Shown one piece after another: positions 4,260 to 52,481 of a DNA stretch of 64,000 bases. Position 1 is the stretch's first letter. Every line of letters begins with the position of its first letter. The DNA comes from Rhodospirillaceae bacterium bin65 (GTDB lineage Bacteria > Pseudomonadota > Alphaproteobacteria > Bin65). The position numbers were made by a program, and so were the translations under genes. The stretch lies in NCBI GenBank assembly GCA_002238725.1, contig MPMX01000014.1, positions 1 through 64,000 on the forward strand. Reading direction: 5' to 3'. Below the pieces are notes generated by a model. The model was not told the origin of the DNA, did no database searches, and saw only the letters and a program-made list of their open reading frames with translations.

Positions 4260-5153
4260 TCACCCGGACCCCTGCGCCGCTCCACTCTCCGGGCACGGAG
4301 ACTTGAGGTCGTTGCGCCGCGCGAGGGGCCGCCGCGCCGCCGCCGGCCGGGATCGGAGGCGGCCGAGATCCATCGCGTCCGCGCCGTCGCCGGACCCGGA
4401 CGGGGAAATGCCCGTGAGTTCCGGCAGGGAAACGCCGGAGGGCGACAGGGTGTGGCCGATGCGGCGCTCGATCTCCACGTACTGCCGGTAGAGCTTGGGG
4501 TGGAGCTCGGCCGCGCGGCGCAGATCGGCGCGCGAGGCCATGATGCAGAAGCTGCAACTCAGCCTCGACATGCCGGCGGCGTAGGCCCAGTGCGGGGTCT
4601 GGCCGGCGGCGCGGATCACGAGGAAGACGTCCTCGGTCGAGAGGTCGAAGATCGGCAGCCAGTCAAAGGCCTCACGCCCGGCAACGCTCAGGCGCTGGTT
4701 GCGGCGCCAGGCGACACGTTTGGCGCGGGCGGCGCTTTCGTCGCGGCGGATGCCGAGGCAGTTGACGAGCCGGTTGCCGAAGCGGGGATTGAGATTTAGG
4801 TATCGGCGCAATTCTCGCTCGATAGGCGTTCTCTTGAAATCGGAAGTACACCAGCGGGCTTGGCTGCTAGGCCACATGCCGCGCTCCTCGACCCGATCGA
4901 GCAGGGTCTTGCCGGACGAAACCGGCGCCATGATGAGCGGCGCGGCGGCATGGGGGCCGGCGCCCTCCCAGCCGACTCCGCGGGGAGGGGCGTGGACGGC
5001 GACGAGCTGGGCGCGCGGAACGATCCTGGACAGCAGGATGGTCATCGATTGTGAATCCTTGCCTCCAGAGTGATTCACCGCCACGAGGGCGCCGGCCCGG
5101 ATCATTTCCCTGCACTGCGGGGGAACGCGGATTTCGGCGATGCGGCTGGACAT
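4260..5153 (-). CDS. PAPS-reductase/N-type ATP pyrophosphatase-like protein
   Basis: 297 residues. The start is placed at MSSRIAEI, with GGGGAG upstream; the 98 residues before it in the same frame lack coding character. The PP-loop SGGKDS (29-34) is the nucleotide-binding signature of the adenylyl-sulfate reductase/ATP pyrophosphatase superfamily. Later it has SSQARWCTSDFKRTPIE, LGIRRDESAAR and SRLSCSFCIMAS, as in the PAPS-reductase-like proteins common in phages and islands (DndC-like fold). The last ~35 residues are Arg/Ala/Pro-rich and may be unstructured. The substrate is unknown. It may serve DNA or RNA modification, but none of the other dnd genes is present. Confidence 0.75.
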   Translation of the reverse strand: MSSRIAEIRVPPQCREMIRAGALVAVNHSGGKDSQSMTILLSRIVPRAQLVAVHAPPRGVGWEGAGPHAAAPLIMAPVSSGKTLLDRVEERGMWPSSQARWCTSDFKRTPIERELRRYLNLNPRFGNRLVNCLGIRRDESAARAKRVAWRRNQRLSVAGREAFDWLPIFDLSTEDVFLVIRAAGQTPHWAYAAGMSRLSCSFCIMASRADLRRAAELHPKLYRQYVEIERRIGHTLSPSGVSLPELTGISPSGSGDGADAMDLGRLRSRPAAARRPLARRNDLKSPCPESGAAQGSG

Positions 5154-42225: not shown

Positions 42226-44334
42226 ATGCCGCTGGACGCCGCGCCCCTGGGCACGAAACCCGAGATCGTTCCCTCGACCTGCCCGCACGATTGCCCGAGC
42301 ACCTGTGCGCTCGACGTCGAGCGGCTCGACGCGCACACCATCGGCCGGGTCCACGGCGCGAAGAGCAACGACTATACCGCCGGCGTGGTCTGCGCCAAGG
42401 TCGCCCGCTATGCCGAGCGCGTCCATCATCCGGCCCGGCTGACGCAGCCGCTGCGCCGCATCGGCGCCAAGGGCGAGGGCATTAGCGCCTTCGCGCCGAT
42501 CGGCTGGGACGAGGCGCTCGACGAGGTCGCCGCCCGGCTCAAGGACATCGCGGAGGAATGGGGCAGCGAGGCGGTGTGGCCCTATTTCTACGCCGGCACC
42601 ATGGGCCTGGTGCAGCGCGACGGCATCGACCGGCTGCGCCACGCCATGCGCTATTCGCGCCAGCATTCCACCTTCTGCAACACCCTGGCCGACGCCGGCT
42701 GGCTCGCCGGGGTCGGCGTCAAATACGGCGTCGATCCTCGCGAGATGCAGGACGCCGACCTGATCGTGGTGTGGGGCGGCAACCCGGTGAACACCCAGGT
42801 CAACGTGATGACCCACATCGCCCGGGCCCGCAAGACCCGCGGCGCCCGGCTGGTCGTGATCGATCCCTACCGCACGGCGACCGCCGAACAGGCCGACATG
42901 CACCTGGCCCTGCGGCCGGGCACCGACGGGGCGCTCGCCTGCGCCGTCATGCATATCCTGTTCCGCGACGGCCACGCCGACCGGGGCTATCTGGAGAAAT
43001 TCGCCGATTGCCCGGCGGAGCTGGAAGCGCATCTGCAAAGCCGCGGCCCGGCCTGGGCGGCGGACATCACCGGCTTGAGCGCGGACGAGATCGAGGCCTT
43101 CGCCGCGCTCTACGCCCGCACCGAACGCGCCTTCATCCGCATCGGCTACGGCTTCACCCGCTCGCGCAACGGCGCGGCCAACCTGCATGCCGTGACGAGC
43201 ATCCCGACCGTCGCCGGCAAGTGGCGGCACCACGCCGGCGGCGCGCTCTATTCCAACGGCGGCCTTTATCCGGTCGACGCCACCCTGATCCGCGGCCTCG
43301 ACGTCATGGACAAGGCGACCCGCCTGCTCGACCAGTCGCGCATCGGCCCGATCCTGACCGGCGACCCCCAAGATATCGGGGGCGACATCGGCAGCAGCAG
43401 CGACGCCGTGCCGGTCAAGGCCCTGTTCATCCAGAACACCAACCCGATGATCGTGGCGCCGGAATCGGCCAAGGTGCGCGACGGCTTCCGGCGCGACGAC
43501 CTGTTCGTGTGCGTGCACGAGCAGTTCATGACCGAGACCGCCGCCATGGCCGATATCGTCCTGCCGGCGACGACCTTCCTCGAGCATGACGACCTGTATG
43601 TCGCCGGCGGCCACACCTATCTCCAGGTCGCGCGCCGGGTCATCGAGCCGCTTGGCGAATGCCGCTCGAACCACGCGGTGCTGTGCGGCCTGGCCCGGCG
43701 CTTCGGCAACAACCATCCCGGCTTCCGCATGACGGAGTGGGAGATCATCGACGCCACGCTGAAGGCCTCGGGCCTGGGCGACGCCGACACGGTCGCCGAC
43801 GGCCGCTGGATCGACTGCGCCAAGGCCGGGGACGAGATGCATTTCCGCAACGGCTTCGGTCATGCGGACGGCAAATTCCGCTTCCGCCCGGACTGGTCGA
43901 AGGTCGGCCGGGACAGCGGCCGGATGCCGGACCTGCCCGATTATTTCGCCATCATCGACACGGCGGACGAGGCGCACCCCTTCCGGCTGGTGACCGCGCC
44001 GGCGCGCAACTATCTCAACAGCAGCTTCACCGAGACGCCGACCTCGCAGAAGCGGGAGGGCCGGCCGACCATCAAGCTGCGCCCGGAGGACCTCGACGCG
44101 ATCGGCGCGCAGGACGGCGGCCGGGTGCGGGTCGGCAACCGCCGGGCGAGCATCGTCGTCCATGCCGAGGCCTTCGACGGCATGCAGCGCGGCGTCGCCA
44201 TTATCGAGAGCATCTGGCCCAACGCCGCCTTCGAGGAAGGCCTCGGCGTCAACGCCCTGACCAGCGCCGACCCCGGCCCGCCGCTGGGCGGCGCAGTGTA
44301 TCACGACACCGCGGTGTGGGTGCGGCCGGCGTAG
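42226..44334 (+). CDS. Molybdopterin-dependent oxidoreductase (DMSO reductase family)
   Basis: 702 residues. N-terminal 4Fe-4S site: C19 (STCPH), C23, C27 (CPHDCPSTCALD) and C56 (VCAK). The molybdopterin-binding core follows: GTMGLVQRDG, DADLIVVWGGNPVNTQ, and HEQFMTETAAMADIVLPATT. The C-terminal domain has APARNYLNSSFTETP and RVGNRRASIVV. There is no Tat signal, so it is cytoplasmic. The family includes formate dehydrogenase, nitrate reductase and thiosulfate reductase-like enzymes; partner subunits are not adjacent, and the substrate remains unknown. Confidence 0.88.
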   Translation: MPLDAAPLGTKPEIVPSTCPHDCPSTCALDVERLDAHTIGRVHGAKSNDYTAGVVCAKVARYAERVHHPARLTQPLRRIGAKGEGISAFAPIGWDEALDEVAARLKDIAEEWGSEAVWPYFYAGTMGLVQRDGIDRLRHAMRYSRQHSTFCNTLADAGWLAGVGVKYGVDPREMQDADLIVVWGGNPVNTQVNVMTHIARARKTRGARLVVIDPYRTATAEQADMHLALRPGTDGALACAVMHILFRDGHADRGYLEKFADCPAELEAHLQSRGPAWAADITGLSADEIEAFAALYARTERAFIRIGYGFTRSRNGAANLHAVTSIPTVAGKWRHHAGGALYSNGGLYPVDATLIRGLDVMDKATRLLDQSRIGPILTGDPQDIGGDIGSSSDAVPVKALFIQNTNPMIVAPESAKVRDGFRRDDLFVCVHEQFMTETAAMADIVLPATTFLEHDDLYVAGGHTYLQVARRVIEPLGECRSNHAVLCGLARRFGNNHPGFRMTEWEIIDATLKASGLGDADTVADGRWIDCAKAGDEMHFRNGFGHADGKFRFRPDWSKVGRDSGRMPDLPDYFAIIDTADEAHPFRLVTAPARNYLNSSFTETPTSQKREGRPTIKLRPEDLDAIGAQDGGRVRVGNRRASIVVHAEAFDGMQRGVAIIESIWPNAAFEEGLGVNALTSADPGPPLGGAVYHDTAVWVRPA

Positions 44335-48693: not shown

Positions 48694-49686
48694 TCACTCC
48701 GGCGGTTCGTAGCGGACGACCTGCTGCTCGATGGCGCCGAAGATGGAGGCGCCGGCATCGTCGAACATCTCGACCCGGACGGTGTCGCCGAACGCCATGA
48801 AGGGCGTTTCGGGCGTGCCGCGCTCGACCGTCTCGATGGCGCGGATTTCGGCGATGCAGGAATAGCCGTCCTTCGGATCGACGTTGGAGACGGTGCCGGA
48901 GCCAACGATCGTCCCGGCGCCGAGCCGGCGGGTCCTGGCGGCGTGGGCGATCAGCCGCGGCAGGCTGAAGTTCATGTCCACCCCGGCGTTCGGCCGGCCG
49001 AATTCTCTGCCGTTCCAGTGGGTGACCAGCGGCAGGTGGAGCTTGCCGCCGCGCCAGGCATCGCCGAGCTCGTCCAGGGTCACGGCGACCGGCGCGAAAG
49101 CCGTGCTGCCCTTGCCGTTGAGGAAGCCGAAGCCCTTGGCGAGTTCGGCCGGGATCAGGCCGCGCAGGCTGACATCGTTCAGGATCATCGCCAGCCGGAT
49201 GCGCCCGGCGGCCTGCTCCGGCGTCGCGCCCATCGGCGTGTCGTCGACGACGACCGCGACCTCGGATTCGAAGTCGATGCCGTAGCTCTCGCTCGCCATC
49301 GGGATGTCGTCGCGCGGGCCGTAGAAGGCGTCGCTCTCGGCCTGGTACATCAGCGGATCGTCGAGGAATTCCGGCGGCATGGTGGCGCCGCGCGCCTTGC
49401 GCACCAGCGCGACGTGGTTGAGGTAGGAACTGCCGTCGACGAACTGGTAGGCGCGCGGCAGGGGCGAGGCGCAGGCCGCCGGGTCCAAGTCGAACGCACC
49501 CGCCGCCCGGCCGGCGTTCAGTTCGTCGGAGAGGCCTTGCAGCGGCGCTTCGGCCGCCGCCCAGCCGTCCAGCGCCGCCTGCAGGGTCGGCGCGACGGCG
49601 TCCGCCTTCACGGCGCGGCGCAGATCGCGCGAGACGACGACGAGTGTGCCGTCCCGGCCGCCGTCCTTGAGAGTGCCGAGTTTCAT
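48694..49686 (-). CDS. Fumarylacetoacetate hydrolase-family protein
   Basis: 330 residues starting MKLGTLKDGGRDGTLVVVSR. FAH-fold signatures: YQFVDGSSYLNHVALVRKAR, YGIDFESEVAVVVDDTPMGA with the metal Glu, the block MILNDVSLRGLIPAE, and GTIVGSGTVSN/YSCIAE near the end. This family includes fumarylacetoacetase and acylpyruvases. It follows the HPPD gene by 66 bases on the same strand, so the last step of homogentisate breakdown is the likely role. The homogentisate dioxygenase gene is not in the window. Confidence 0.87.
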   Translation of the reverse strand: MKLGTLKDGGRDGTLVVVSRDLRRAVKADAVAPTLQAALDGWAAAEAPLQGLSDELNAGRAAGAFDLDPAACASPLPRAYQFVDGSSYLNHVALVRKARGATMPPEFLDDPLMYQAESDAFYGPRDDIPMASESYGIDFESEVAVVVDDTPMGATPEQAAGRIRLAMILNDVSLRGLIPAELAKGFGFLNGKGSTAFAPVAVTLDELGDAWRGGKLHLPLVTHWNGREFGRPNAGVDMNFSLPRLIAHAARTRRLGAGTIVGSGTVSNVDPKDGYSCIAEIRAIETVERGTPETPFMAFGDTVRVEMFDDAGASIFGAIEQQVVRYEPPE

Positions 49687-49752
49687 CCGGGAAAAGCCTT
49701 TCGCAAAGACGCCGCAGCCGTTCGCGGGAAATGGCGCGGCGGGATCGGGGGT

Positions 49753-50847
49753 TCAGGCTTTCAGCACGCCGCGGCGAATCTGGTCAAGCTCGATGCTCTC
49801 GAACAGGGCCTGGAAGTTGCCCTCGCCGAAGCCCTCGTCGCCCTTGCGCTGGATGACCTCGAAGAAGATCGGGCCGACGGCGTTTTCGGTGAAGATCTGG
49901 AGCAGCCGGCCGCCGTCTTCGGTCGGCGCGCCGTCGATCAGGATCTGCAGGCGCCTGAGCTCGTCGACCGGCTCGCCATGGTCCGGCAGGCGCGCATCGA
50001 TGCCCTCGTAATAGGTGTCCGGCGTCGCCATGAAGGCCGTGCCGCGGGCGCGCATGGCCTCGACCGTGCGGTAGATGTCGGCGGTCGAGAGCGCGATATG
50101 CTGGATGCCCTCGCCGTTATAGGCCTCGAGATATTCCGCGATCTGGCTGCTGTCGTCGGAACTCTCGTTGATCGGGATGCGGATTTTGCCGCACGGGCTG
50201 GTCATGGCGCGGGATTTGAGGCCGGTCAGTCTGCCCTCGATATCGAAAAACCTGATCTCGCGGAAATTGAACAGCCGCTCGTAAAAGGCGGCCCAGCTGT
50301 CCATCCGGCCGCGGTGGACATTGTGGGTCAGATGGTCGACCGCCGCGAAGCCGACGCCGTCGTGATCGAGCGAACCGTCGATCCCGAAATCGACGTCGTA
50401 GATCGTGCCGCCCGCGCCGTAGCGGTCGACCAGGTAGATCAGCGAGCCGCCGATGCCCCTGATCGACGGGATGTTGAGCTCCATCGGCCCGGCCTGGTCC
50501 GGCCCCGGTTCCGCGCCGAGGTCGAGGGCGCGCCGCCAGGCCTTGGCGGCGTCCTTCACCCGGAACGCCATGGCGCAGACCGAGGGGCCGTGCACCCGGG
50601 CGAAGGATTGGGCGAAGCTGTCGGGCTCAGCGTTCAGGATGAAGTTGACGTCGCCCTGGCGATAGAGGGTGACGTCCTTGTGCCGGTGGCGGGCGGCGGC
50701 GCGGAAGCCCATGCGCGCGAACAGGCCGGCCAGCGCCTTCGGGTCCGGCGCGGTGTATTCGATGAATTCGAATCCGTCGGTGCCCATCGGGTTGAGGGCG
50801 TCGATATCGCCGCCGGCGTCTGCGGCGGGCCGGGCCGTTTCGGTCAT
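49753..50847 (-). CDS. hpd: 4-hydroxyphenylpyruvate dioxygenase
   Basis: 364 residues. Converts 4-hydroxyphenylpyruvate to homogentisate with non-haem Fe(II). Two vicinal-oxygen-chelate halves: N-terminal [20 protein letters not shown] and C-terminal domain with the iron ligands His in VDHLTHNV, His in [11 protein letters not shown] and Glu in [20 protein letters not shown], the latter being the conserved C-terminal signature. The pair with the FAH-family gene and the divergent MarR gene matches tyrosine catabolism operons. Confidence 0.93.
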
Positions 50848-50914: not shown

Positions 50915-51388
50915 ATGACCGGTCCCGTTGCGGCCCCGCGCCTCGATCTCGCGGCCTACCTGCCCTATCGGCTGTCGATTCTGTCGAACACGGTGTCCGG
51001 CGCGATCGCGGCGATCTACGAAACCCGCTATGGCCTTTCGGTCGCCGACTGGCGGCTGATGGCGGTCCTGAGCATGGAGCCGGACCGGCCGCTGACCCAG
51101 AAGGCCCTGTGCGCCCGCACGCGCATGGACAAGGTCCAGGTCAGCCGCGCCGTGAAGCGACTGCTGGAACGGGGCCATATCGAGCGGGAGGTCGACAACG
51201 GCGACCGGCGCAGCGCCCTTCTGCGGCTGACCGGGCAGGGCCGGGCGGTCTACGACGATGTCGCGCCGGCAACGCTGGAATGGGAACGGGAACTGCTGTC
51301 GCGCCTCACGCCGGCCGAGGCGGCGATCCTCGATACGGTCGTCGCCCGCCTGCAGCAGGTCGCCGACGAGATGGCGGCCGGTTCGTAG
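50915..51388 (+). CDS. MarR-family regulator of the tyrosine/homogentisate genes
   Basis: 157 residues. Winged helix: SVADWRLMAVLSMEPDRPLT, RMDKVQVSRAVKRLLERGHI, and wing DNGDRRSALLRLTGQGRAVY. Divergent from hpd, with the TAGTTTCA palindrome in between, so it most likely represses hpd-fah and itself; the inducer would be homogentisate or a related acid, as for other regulators of this pathway. Start ATG 50915 is preceded by AGAGGAACC. Confidence 0.9.
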   Translation: MTGPVAAPRLDLAAYLPYRLSILSNTVSGAIAAIYETRYGLSVADWRLMAVLSMEPDRPLTQKALCARTRMDKVQVSRAVKRLLERGHIEREVDNGDRRSALLRLTGQGRAVYDDVAPATLEWERELLSRLTPAEAAILDTVVARLQQVADEMAAGS

Positions 51389-51405: not shown

Positions 51406-51627
51406 TCAGGCCCGCGCGGCGATCGCCTCGATTTCGTCGTCTTCCGGGAAGCGGCCCAGCGCCTTCTTGGAAAAGACCGGCTCGCCGTCGAGGCTGATCT
51501 CGAACACGCCGCCGCCGCCCTTGACCAGTTCGACCTCGGCGCCGTCGATTTCAGAGAACCTGTCGCTCACACGGAGCGCCCTGGGTTCGTAGTTTCAAAC
51601 GACGCAGTATTCGATCCTGAATTTCAT
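51406..51627 (-). CDS. SelW-like selenoprotein (Rdx family) with in-frame TGA
   Basis: From ATG 51627 (GGAG upstream) the frame reads MKFRIEYCVV, TGA at 51595-51597, then NYEPRALRVSDRFSEIDGAE and on to VEISLDGEPVFSKKALGRFP-type residues (exactly VFEISLDGEPVFSKKALGRF) and EDDEIEAIAARA, stop at 51406-51408: 73 residues with the TGA as selenocysteine 11. CxxU/CxxC followed by a Rdx fold (KGGGGVFEI, SKKALGRFPE) is the SelW/SelT/SelH redox site. The TGA stands where relatives have Cys or Sec, so it is recoding and not decay. A hairpin follows at the distance needed for a bacterial SECIS. Confidence 0.85.
51564..51578 (-). promoter_or_regulatory. Candidate bacterial SECIS hairpin
   Basis: On the minus strand CGCTC-CGTGT-GAGCG, a 5-bp stem with a G-containing 5-base loop, beginning 16 bases after the TGA. 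Bacterial SECIS elements sit directly downstream of the UGA with an apical loop about this far away. Not folded by program; weak stem outside the upper helix. Confidence 0.5.
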
Positions 51628-51845
51628 CCGGTTCTCCTGTTTCGGGCCTGTTGCGGGCCGGCGCGTCCGGCCGGCGACGAAACCCGGCGACTATAAAGCG
51701 CGGCAGCCCGGCGGACCAGCATCCTGCGCGCCCGCAGACCGCAGGCGTCGCCGGGCGTGGCGCGTCCTTGCCGGCGCGCATGGCGGCGCGCTAGGTTCCG
51801 GCCAGTTCAGGACAGAGAATTCTGCATCCGAAAGGAAGGCCCCCG

Positions 51846-52481
51846 ATGAAGCTCTATTACGATCCACGCACCGTGAACTGCCGCAAGGTTCTGGCCGGTT
51901 TCAAGCATATGGGCGTCGCGTTCGAGACCGAGAATGTCGACTATTTCGCGCAGGGTCAGCAGTCGCCCGACTACATGGCGATCAACCCGAACGCAGCCCT
52001 GCCCGCGCTGGTCGACGGCGATCTCCAGCTTTGGGAATCCAACGCGATCCTGCAATACGGGGCCGACAAGGTCGGCGCCGAATCGGCCTATCCGAGCGAT
52101 CTGGCGACCCGGGCCGACGTCAACCGCTGGCTGCTCTGGGAATCGAGTGCCTGGTTCCCGACCTGCTACGTCTACCTGGTCGAGAATGTCGTCAAGCCAA
52201 TCCTCGAAGCCGAGCCGGACCAGGCCATCCTCGACGGCGAGGGACCGAATTTCCACAAGCATGCCGGCATTCTCGACGACCGGCTCGACGGCCAGGACTG
52301 GCTGTGCGGCACGCCGGAGCCGACCATCGCCGACATCGCGGTCGCCTCGCCGATGCATCTGCACCGGTTTCAGCAGCTGCCCCTCGACGCGCATCCGAAC
52401 CTCAGCGCCTGGATCGGTCGGATGGAGTCGGTGCCGGCCTGGGAAAGCACCGACGTCGCCCCGCTGCTCGGCCTGGCGTGA
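51846..52481 (+). CDS. Glutathione S-transferase family protein
   Basis: 211 residues after AAAGGAAGG. N-terminal thioredoxin-like domain: MKLYYDPRTVNCRKVLAGFK, cis-Pro loop PNAALPALVDGDLQLWESNA, and the helical C-terminal domain with CGTPEPTIADIAVASPMHLH (N-capping box and hydrophobic staple). The active residue near the N-terminus is Asn/Cys (TVNCRK), so beta- or theta-like chemistry cannot be decided. Followed 34 bases later by an SDR gene; no clear pathway. Confidence 0.87.
   Translation: MKLYYDPRTVNCRKVLAGFKHMGVAFETENVDYFAQGQQSPDYMAINPNAALPALVDGDLQLWESNAILQYGADKVGAESAYPSDLATRADVNRWLLWESSAWFPTCYVYLVENVVKPILEAEPDQAILDGEGPNFHKHAGILDDRLDGQDWLCGTPEPTIADIAVASPMHLHRFQQLPLDAHPNLSAWIGRMESVPAWESTDVAPLLGLA

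Follow-up and report, generated by a model that had tools for sequence, protein, structure and literature searches.

The literature on SelW-like selenoproteins of bacteria goes back to 2005 at the latest, with 48 sequences reported in the Sargasso Sea set (PMC1088965), and a survey from 2016 counted them in 35 genomes (PMC5029168). In a later survey, no marine selenoprotein family was more abundant, with SelW-like proteins accounting for 11.3% of marine selenoprotein genes (PMC9402790). Their Cys homologues are few or absent in organisms that use selenocysteine (Sec) (PMC1794560). The published model of the bacterial SECIS element sets constraints on loop, spacing, and stem (PMC13188914), and the eukaryotic SECIS is located in the 3′ UTR (PMC1088965). 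Here, we analyze a selW-like gene located in the window, i.e., the whole stretch of 64,000 nucleotides under study, and observe that it is a newly recognised example of these long-described bacterial selenoproteins. The gene shares with them the Rdx domain, the CxxU motif, an in-frame UGA with a downstream bacterial SECIS, and the dominance of the Sec form, and we find no difference of substance; the window gene comes from an alphaproteobacterial lineage, the nearest relatives of which include the sponge-bin MAG Spongia_Bin9. The Rdx family and the redox motif are also common to eukaryotic selenoprotein W (PDB 2npb) and C17orf37 (PDB 2ljk), and the SECIS of the window gene is situated in the coding region directly after the UGA, unlike the 3′ UTR element of eukaryotes.

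The original prediction placed a minus-strand frame here, running from 51627 to 51406, with an in-frame TGA at the second redox position of CxxU, a stop 63 codons further on, a good ribosome-binding site, and a full Rdx/SelW fold. Translation of the region reproduced the coordinates, the distance, and the motif position, an AGGAG precedes the start codon (Table 1), and a match to Pfam Rdx (PF10262; E = 2.4e-16) covers residues 4-67 of the protein and positions 3-69 of the 74 in the profile. The frame consists of an ATG (51627-51625), nine further sense codons, the TGA at codon 11, 62 sense codons, and a terminal TGA (51408-51406). Readthrough of the internal TGA gives a product of 73 residues including Sec11, MKFRIEYCVVUNYEPRALRVSDRFSEIDGAEVELVKGGGGVFEISLDGEPVFSKKALGRFPEDDEIEAIAARA.

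Table 1. Coordinates of the selW-like gene, its signals and neighbours in the window, and other genes of the same genome discussed in the text
Feature	Position	Strand	Basis or remark
selW-like selenoprotein gene	51406..51627	minus	Frame and translation, Pfam Rdx, NCBIfam CXXU_selWTH
Sec-encoding TGA, codon 11 (CVVU)	51595..51597	minus	Same codon TGA in 43 of 44 homologous loci, TGC in 1
Ribosome-binding site AGGAG	51634..51638	minus	Sequence; 6 nt upstream of the selW ATG
SECIS upper stem-loop CGCTC / CGTGT / GAGCG (5 bp, 5-nt loop, G at position 2)	51564..51578	minus	Covariation
Possible extended SECIS, lower stem GAACC (51588-51584) / GGTTC (51560-51556)	51556..51588	minus	5 lower pairs in the genus
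MarR-family regulator, convergent with selW	50915..51388	plus	Pfam MarR_2 E 1.7e-17; near selW in most congeners
Glutathione S-transferase (GST)-like protein, divergent from selW	51846..52481	plus	Pfam GST_N E 2.6e-13
HPPD-like and fumarylacetoacetase-like genes, adjacent (tyrosine degradation)	48694-50847	minus	
Molybdopterin oxidoreductase domain, without in-frame TGA	42436-43698	plus	
UGSC-like gene, GVGD-U-GSC	L082:1699-1701 (G000:C65)		UGSC family match below cut-off
UGSC-like gene, GVGC-U-GAC (UGAC site)	L083 (G000:C24:96341-96778)		UGSC family match below cut-off

Two NCBIfam models also match over nearly the full length. CXXU_selWTH (TIGR02174) does so above its cut-off (E = 4e-14), and SelTWH_Campy (NF041051, SelT/SelW/SelH family (seleno)protein) gives E = 1e-24 and, with Sec written as Cys, a score of 86.5 bits, slightly short of the equivalog cut-off (88). 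By sequence match, the solved relatives are C17orf37 (E = 2e-9) and several bacterial SelW-related proteins, with eukaryotic selenoprotein W reaching only E = 0.36. As judged from the Pfam Rdx and SelTWH_Campy matches, the similarity of the SelW protein is far beyond chance. The same does not apply to the motif, since this G+C-rich window contains 37 TGAs that lie in an otherwise open frame with a CxxU- or UxxC-type context, 36 of them besides the one in selW. Because such contexts are so frequent, the context alone is worth little as evidence, and it is the family match, not the motif, that marks out the selW site.

Using homology to retrieve loci from a species-level genome collection, we obtained 44 homologous loci, of which 43 have a TGA at the homologous codon and one, the distant member L064, has TGC (Cys). 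This alignment, proposed with the original prediction as a check, therefore showed either TGA or Cys at the site and no unrelated residue. According to their records, the relatives belong to the Alpha- and Gammaproteobacteria, Desulfobulbaceae, SAR324, Calditrichota, Planctomycetota, Bacillota, and Verrucomicrobiota. Downstream of the TGA, close relatives differ mainly at third codon positions (e.g., 2/2/10 differences at the three codon positions versus locus L022), and the downstream frame is therefore under selection as protein. The selW genes of three gammaproteobacterial MAGs (L027, L028, and L029; match at 5001) nest within the alphaproteobacterial genus of the window, with support of 98/91 from only 73 columns, and their SECIS upper stem-loop is letter-for-letter that of this genus. 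Such a placement suggests either horizontal transfer or misbinned contigs.

The presence of selA, selB, selC, and selD elsewhere in the genome had been no more than supposed. Our search of the genome containing the window (4.29 Mb in 94 contigs, 96% complete) located all four side by side and in that order on a single contig, C90, with profile matches of E = 2e-165 for selA, 1.7e-118 for selB, and 1.9e-78 for selD, and with a selC tRNA-Sec that scores 72.6 bits (gathering score, 47) and carries the anticodon TCA (ARAGORN). With these genes present and the homologous site being TGA or Cys, neither of the two outcomes named beforehand as refuting the prediction occurred. Directly after selC lies the gene of a 743-residue protein (L002:12083-14314, on C90) that has SelD as its C-terminal part and the N-terminal half of which resembles, by inspection, a pyridine nucleotide-disulphide oxidoreductase; this SelD has Cys (CGGCGAK), not Sec.

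We also surveyed 387 genomes of the window's class, each at least 90% complete, with selA scored above its curated cut-off. Thirty of these genomes carry a TGA inside an Rdx gene, and all 30, with no exception, contain selA, versus 66 of 387 genomes overall and 3 of the 23 with uninterrupted Rdx genes. Fisher's test gives p ~1e-26 for this association, and 5e-22 when the genus of the window is excluded (24 of 24 with selA), although kinship among the species means that these p values overstate independence. Within the family of the window, where an order-level genome search and the family search gave the identical 11 genomes, all seven genomes of the window's genus have both the TGA-containing Rdx gene and selA. 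Genome G008 (L074) has selA without an Rdx gene, as is also the case for 33 of the 387 genomes of the class, and the Sec system is therefore kept there for other selenoproteins.

The original prediction further described a hairpin with a G-containing loop beginning 16 bases past the TGA. Its position is correct, with 21 nt between the UGA and the loop CGUGU, the hairpin agrees with the published model in loop, spacing, and stem, and covariation backs it. In an alignment of 43 sequences (39 distinct) compared with 500 shuffles, 96.4% of hairpin cells are paired (78.7 ± 1.7 in shuffles), 34 cells show double-sided changes (10.5 ± 2.7), and the covariation score is 0.458 (0.120 ± 0.023), a value reached by 0 of the 500 shuffles; sliding the partner by 1-3 columns destroys the pairing. 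The second pair occurs among relatives as C-G, G-C, U-A, and G-U. Its partners are the synonymous third base of the Ala17 codon and the corresponding base of codon 21, such that GCG is found with AGC, i.e., Ser, and GCC with AGG or GCT with AGA, i.e., Arg.

The energy criterion for bacterial SECIS elements is a minimum free energy of -7.5 kcal/mol or lower, and the window copy is borderline, with a value that depends on the length folded, being -7.4 kcal/mol on 39 nt from the UGA and, for the sequence after the UGA, -6.7 with 35 nt folded and -12.9 with 40 nt. Taken alone, the folding energy of this copy is unremarkable against shuffles (-7.4 kcal/mol, z 0.32); the evidence for the hairpin is covariation, not folding energy. 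A scan of the window with Rfam returned no family at gathering score, which says little because bacterial SECIS elements are diverse. We also considered a conserved lower stem and rejected it, as all five pairs occur in the window's genus and some relatives, and only 60% of cells are paired over all relatives; on this comparison, the lower stem would be lineage-specific at best.

We regard it as about 97% probable that the window gene is functional and encodes a bacterial SelW-like selenoprotein of the Rdx family; the gene structure, the homology, the conservation of the site, the Sec machinery, and the covarying hairpin were all observed in this analysis. A Cys form of the site does exist in the family, in L064, and a Cys codon (TGC or TGT) turned into TGA by mutation or sequencing error would make this gene a pseudogene or an artefact. 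This explanation is very improbable, since 43 loci, assembled separately and belonging to several phyla, have the same TGA with the downstream frame conserved, the hairpin covaries, and the TGA form tracks selA. Readthrough of the in-frame TGA would also be expected if the organism read UGA as another amino acid, e.g., tryptophan, throughout, but selW itself ends in TGA, already a sign that TGA is an ordinary stop in this genome, and the set of 45 genes includes 19 with this ending, codon 11 is the redox Cys/Sec position, and a tRNA-Sec with anticodon TCA is present together with SelB, such that we give this idea the least credence of all.

A variant of the selenoprotein reading is that selW is a real selenoprotein gene whose early UGA doubles as a selenium-responsive switch, with termination after ten residues being regulatory. 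The early location of the UGA fits such a role, as does the competition of Sec insertion with termination, which is a general property. Since the protein downstream of the UGA is strongly conserved, and we found no sign specific to a switch, we consider this very unlikely too, if somewhat less far-fetched than a mutated Cys codon or a recoded UGA.

The selW gene may not be the only selenoprotein gene in this genome. The UGSC selenoprotein family has two matches in the genome, each scoring below the family cut-off and each with a single in-frame TGA where Sec is expected, and the gene on contig C65 has a predicted hairpin fold after its TGA (-28.6 kcal/mol). Counting SelW, candidate selenoproteins in this genome number at least three, and because these two UGSC-like genes share the genome, the Sec system probably serves several genes. 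Formate dehydrogenase is the usual alphaproteobacterial selenoprotein; none of the nine molybdopterin oxidoreductase matches in this genome contains an in-frame TGA within the match, and no Sec-type formate dehydrogenase was seen among them. Two of these matches, cut by contig ends, look by inspection like halves of one NuoG-like gene.

Gene neighbourhood was examined as a functional clue and rejected, as the MarR, GST, and HPPD neighbours are kept within the genus only. The GST-like gene, for example, adjoins selW in several congeners and not outside the genus, and it says little about function because the neighbourhood is lost there. The HPPD-like and fumarylacetoacetase-like genes (tyrosine degradation) adjoin the MarR-type regulator, which is encoded on the other strand.

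What is already known of the family lets us infer how Sec insertion and a redox role would proceed. On reaching the UGA at codon 11 of the selW mRNA, the ribosome would be met by SelB with Sec-tRNA(Sec) bound to the SECIS hairpin directly downstream, Sec would be inserted, and translation would then run to the second UGA (codon 74) and terminate. The product would be a small protein of thioredoxin-like fold with a CxxU redox pair, most likely working as a selenol/thiol oxidoreductase that would cycle through a selenenylsulfide, perhaps with glutathione, or else thioredoxin, as its partner.

What is known of bacterial selenoproteins is unchanged by this gene. Automatic gene finders tend to truncate or miss genes with an in-frame TGA, and the selW case illustrates that close reading of the raw sequence can retrieve a selenoprotein gene that standard callers tend to skip. 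It also yields a clean, covariation-backed SECIS data set of 43 sequences. The chances seem to us evenly balanced that the hairpin constrains the protein, with the RNA signal helping to choose Ser or Arg at codon 21, and that, besides, alpha- and gammaproteobacteria may have exchanged the gene together with an identical hairpin.
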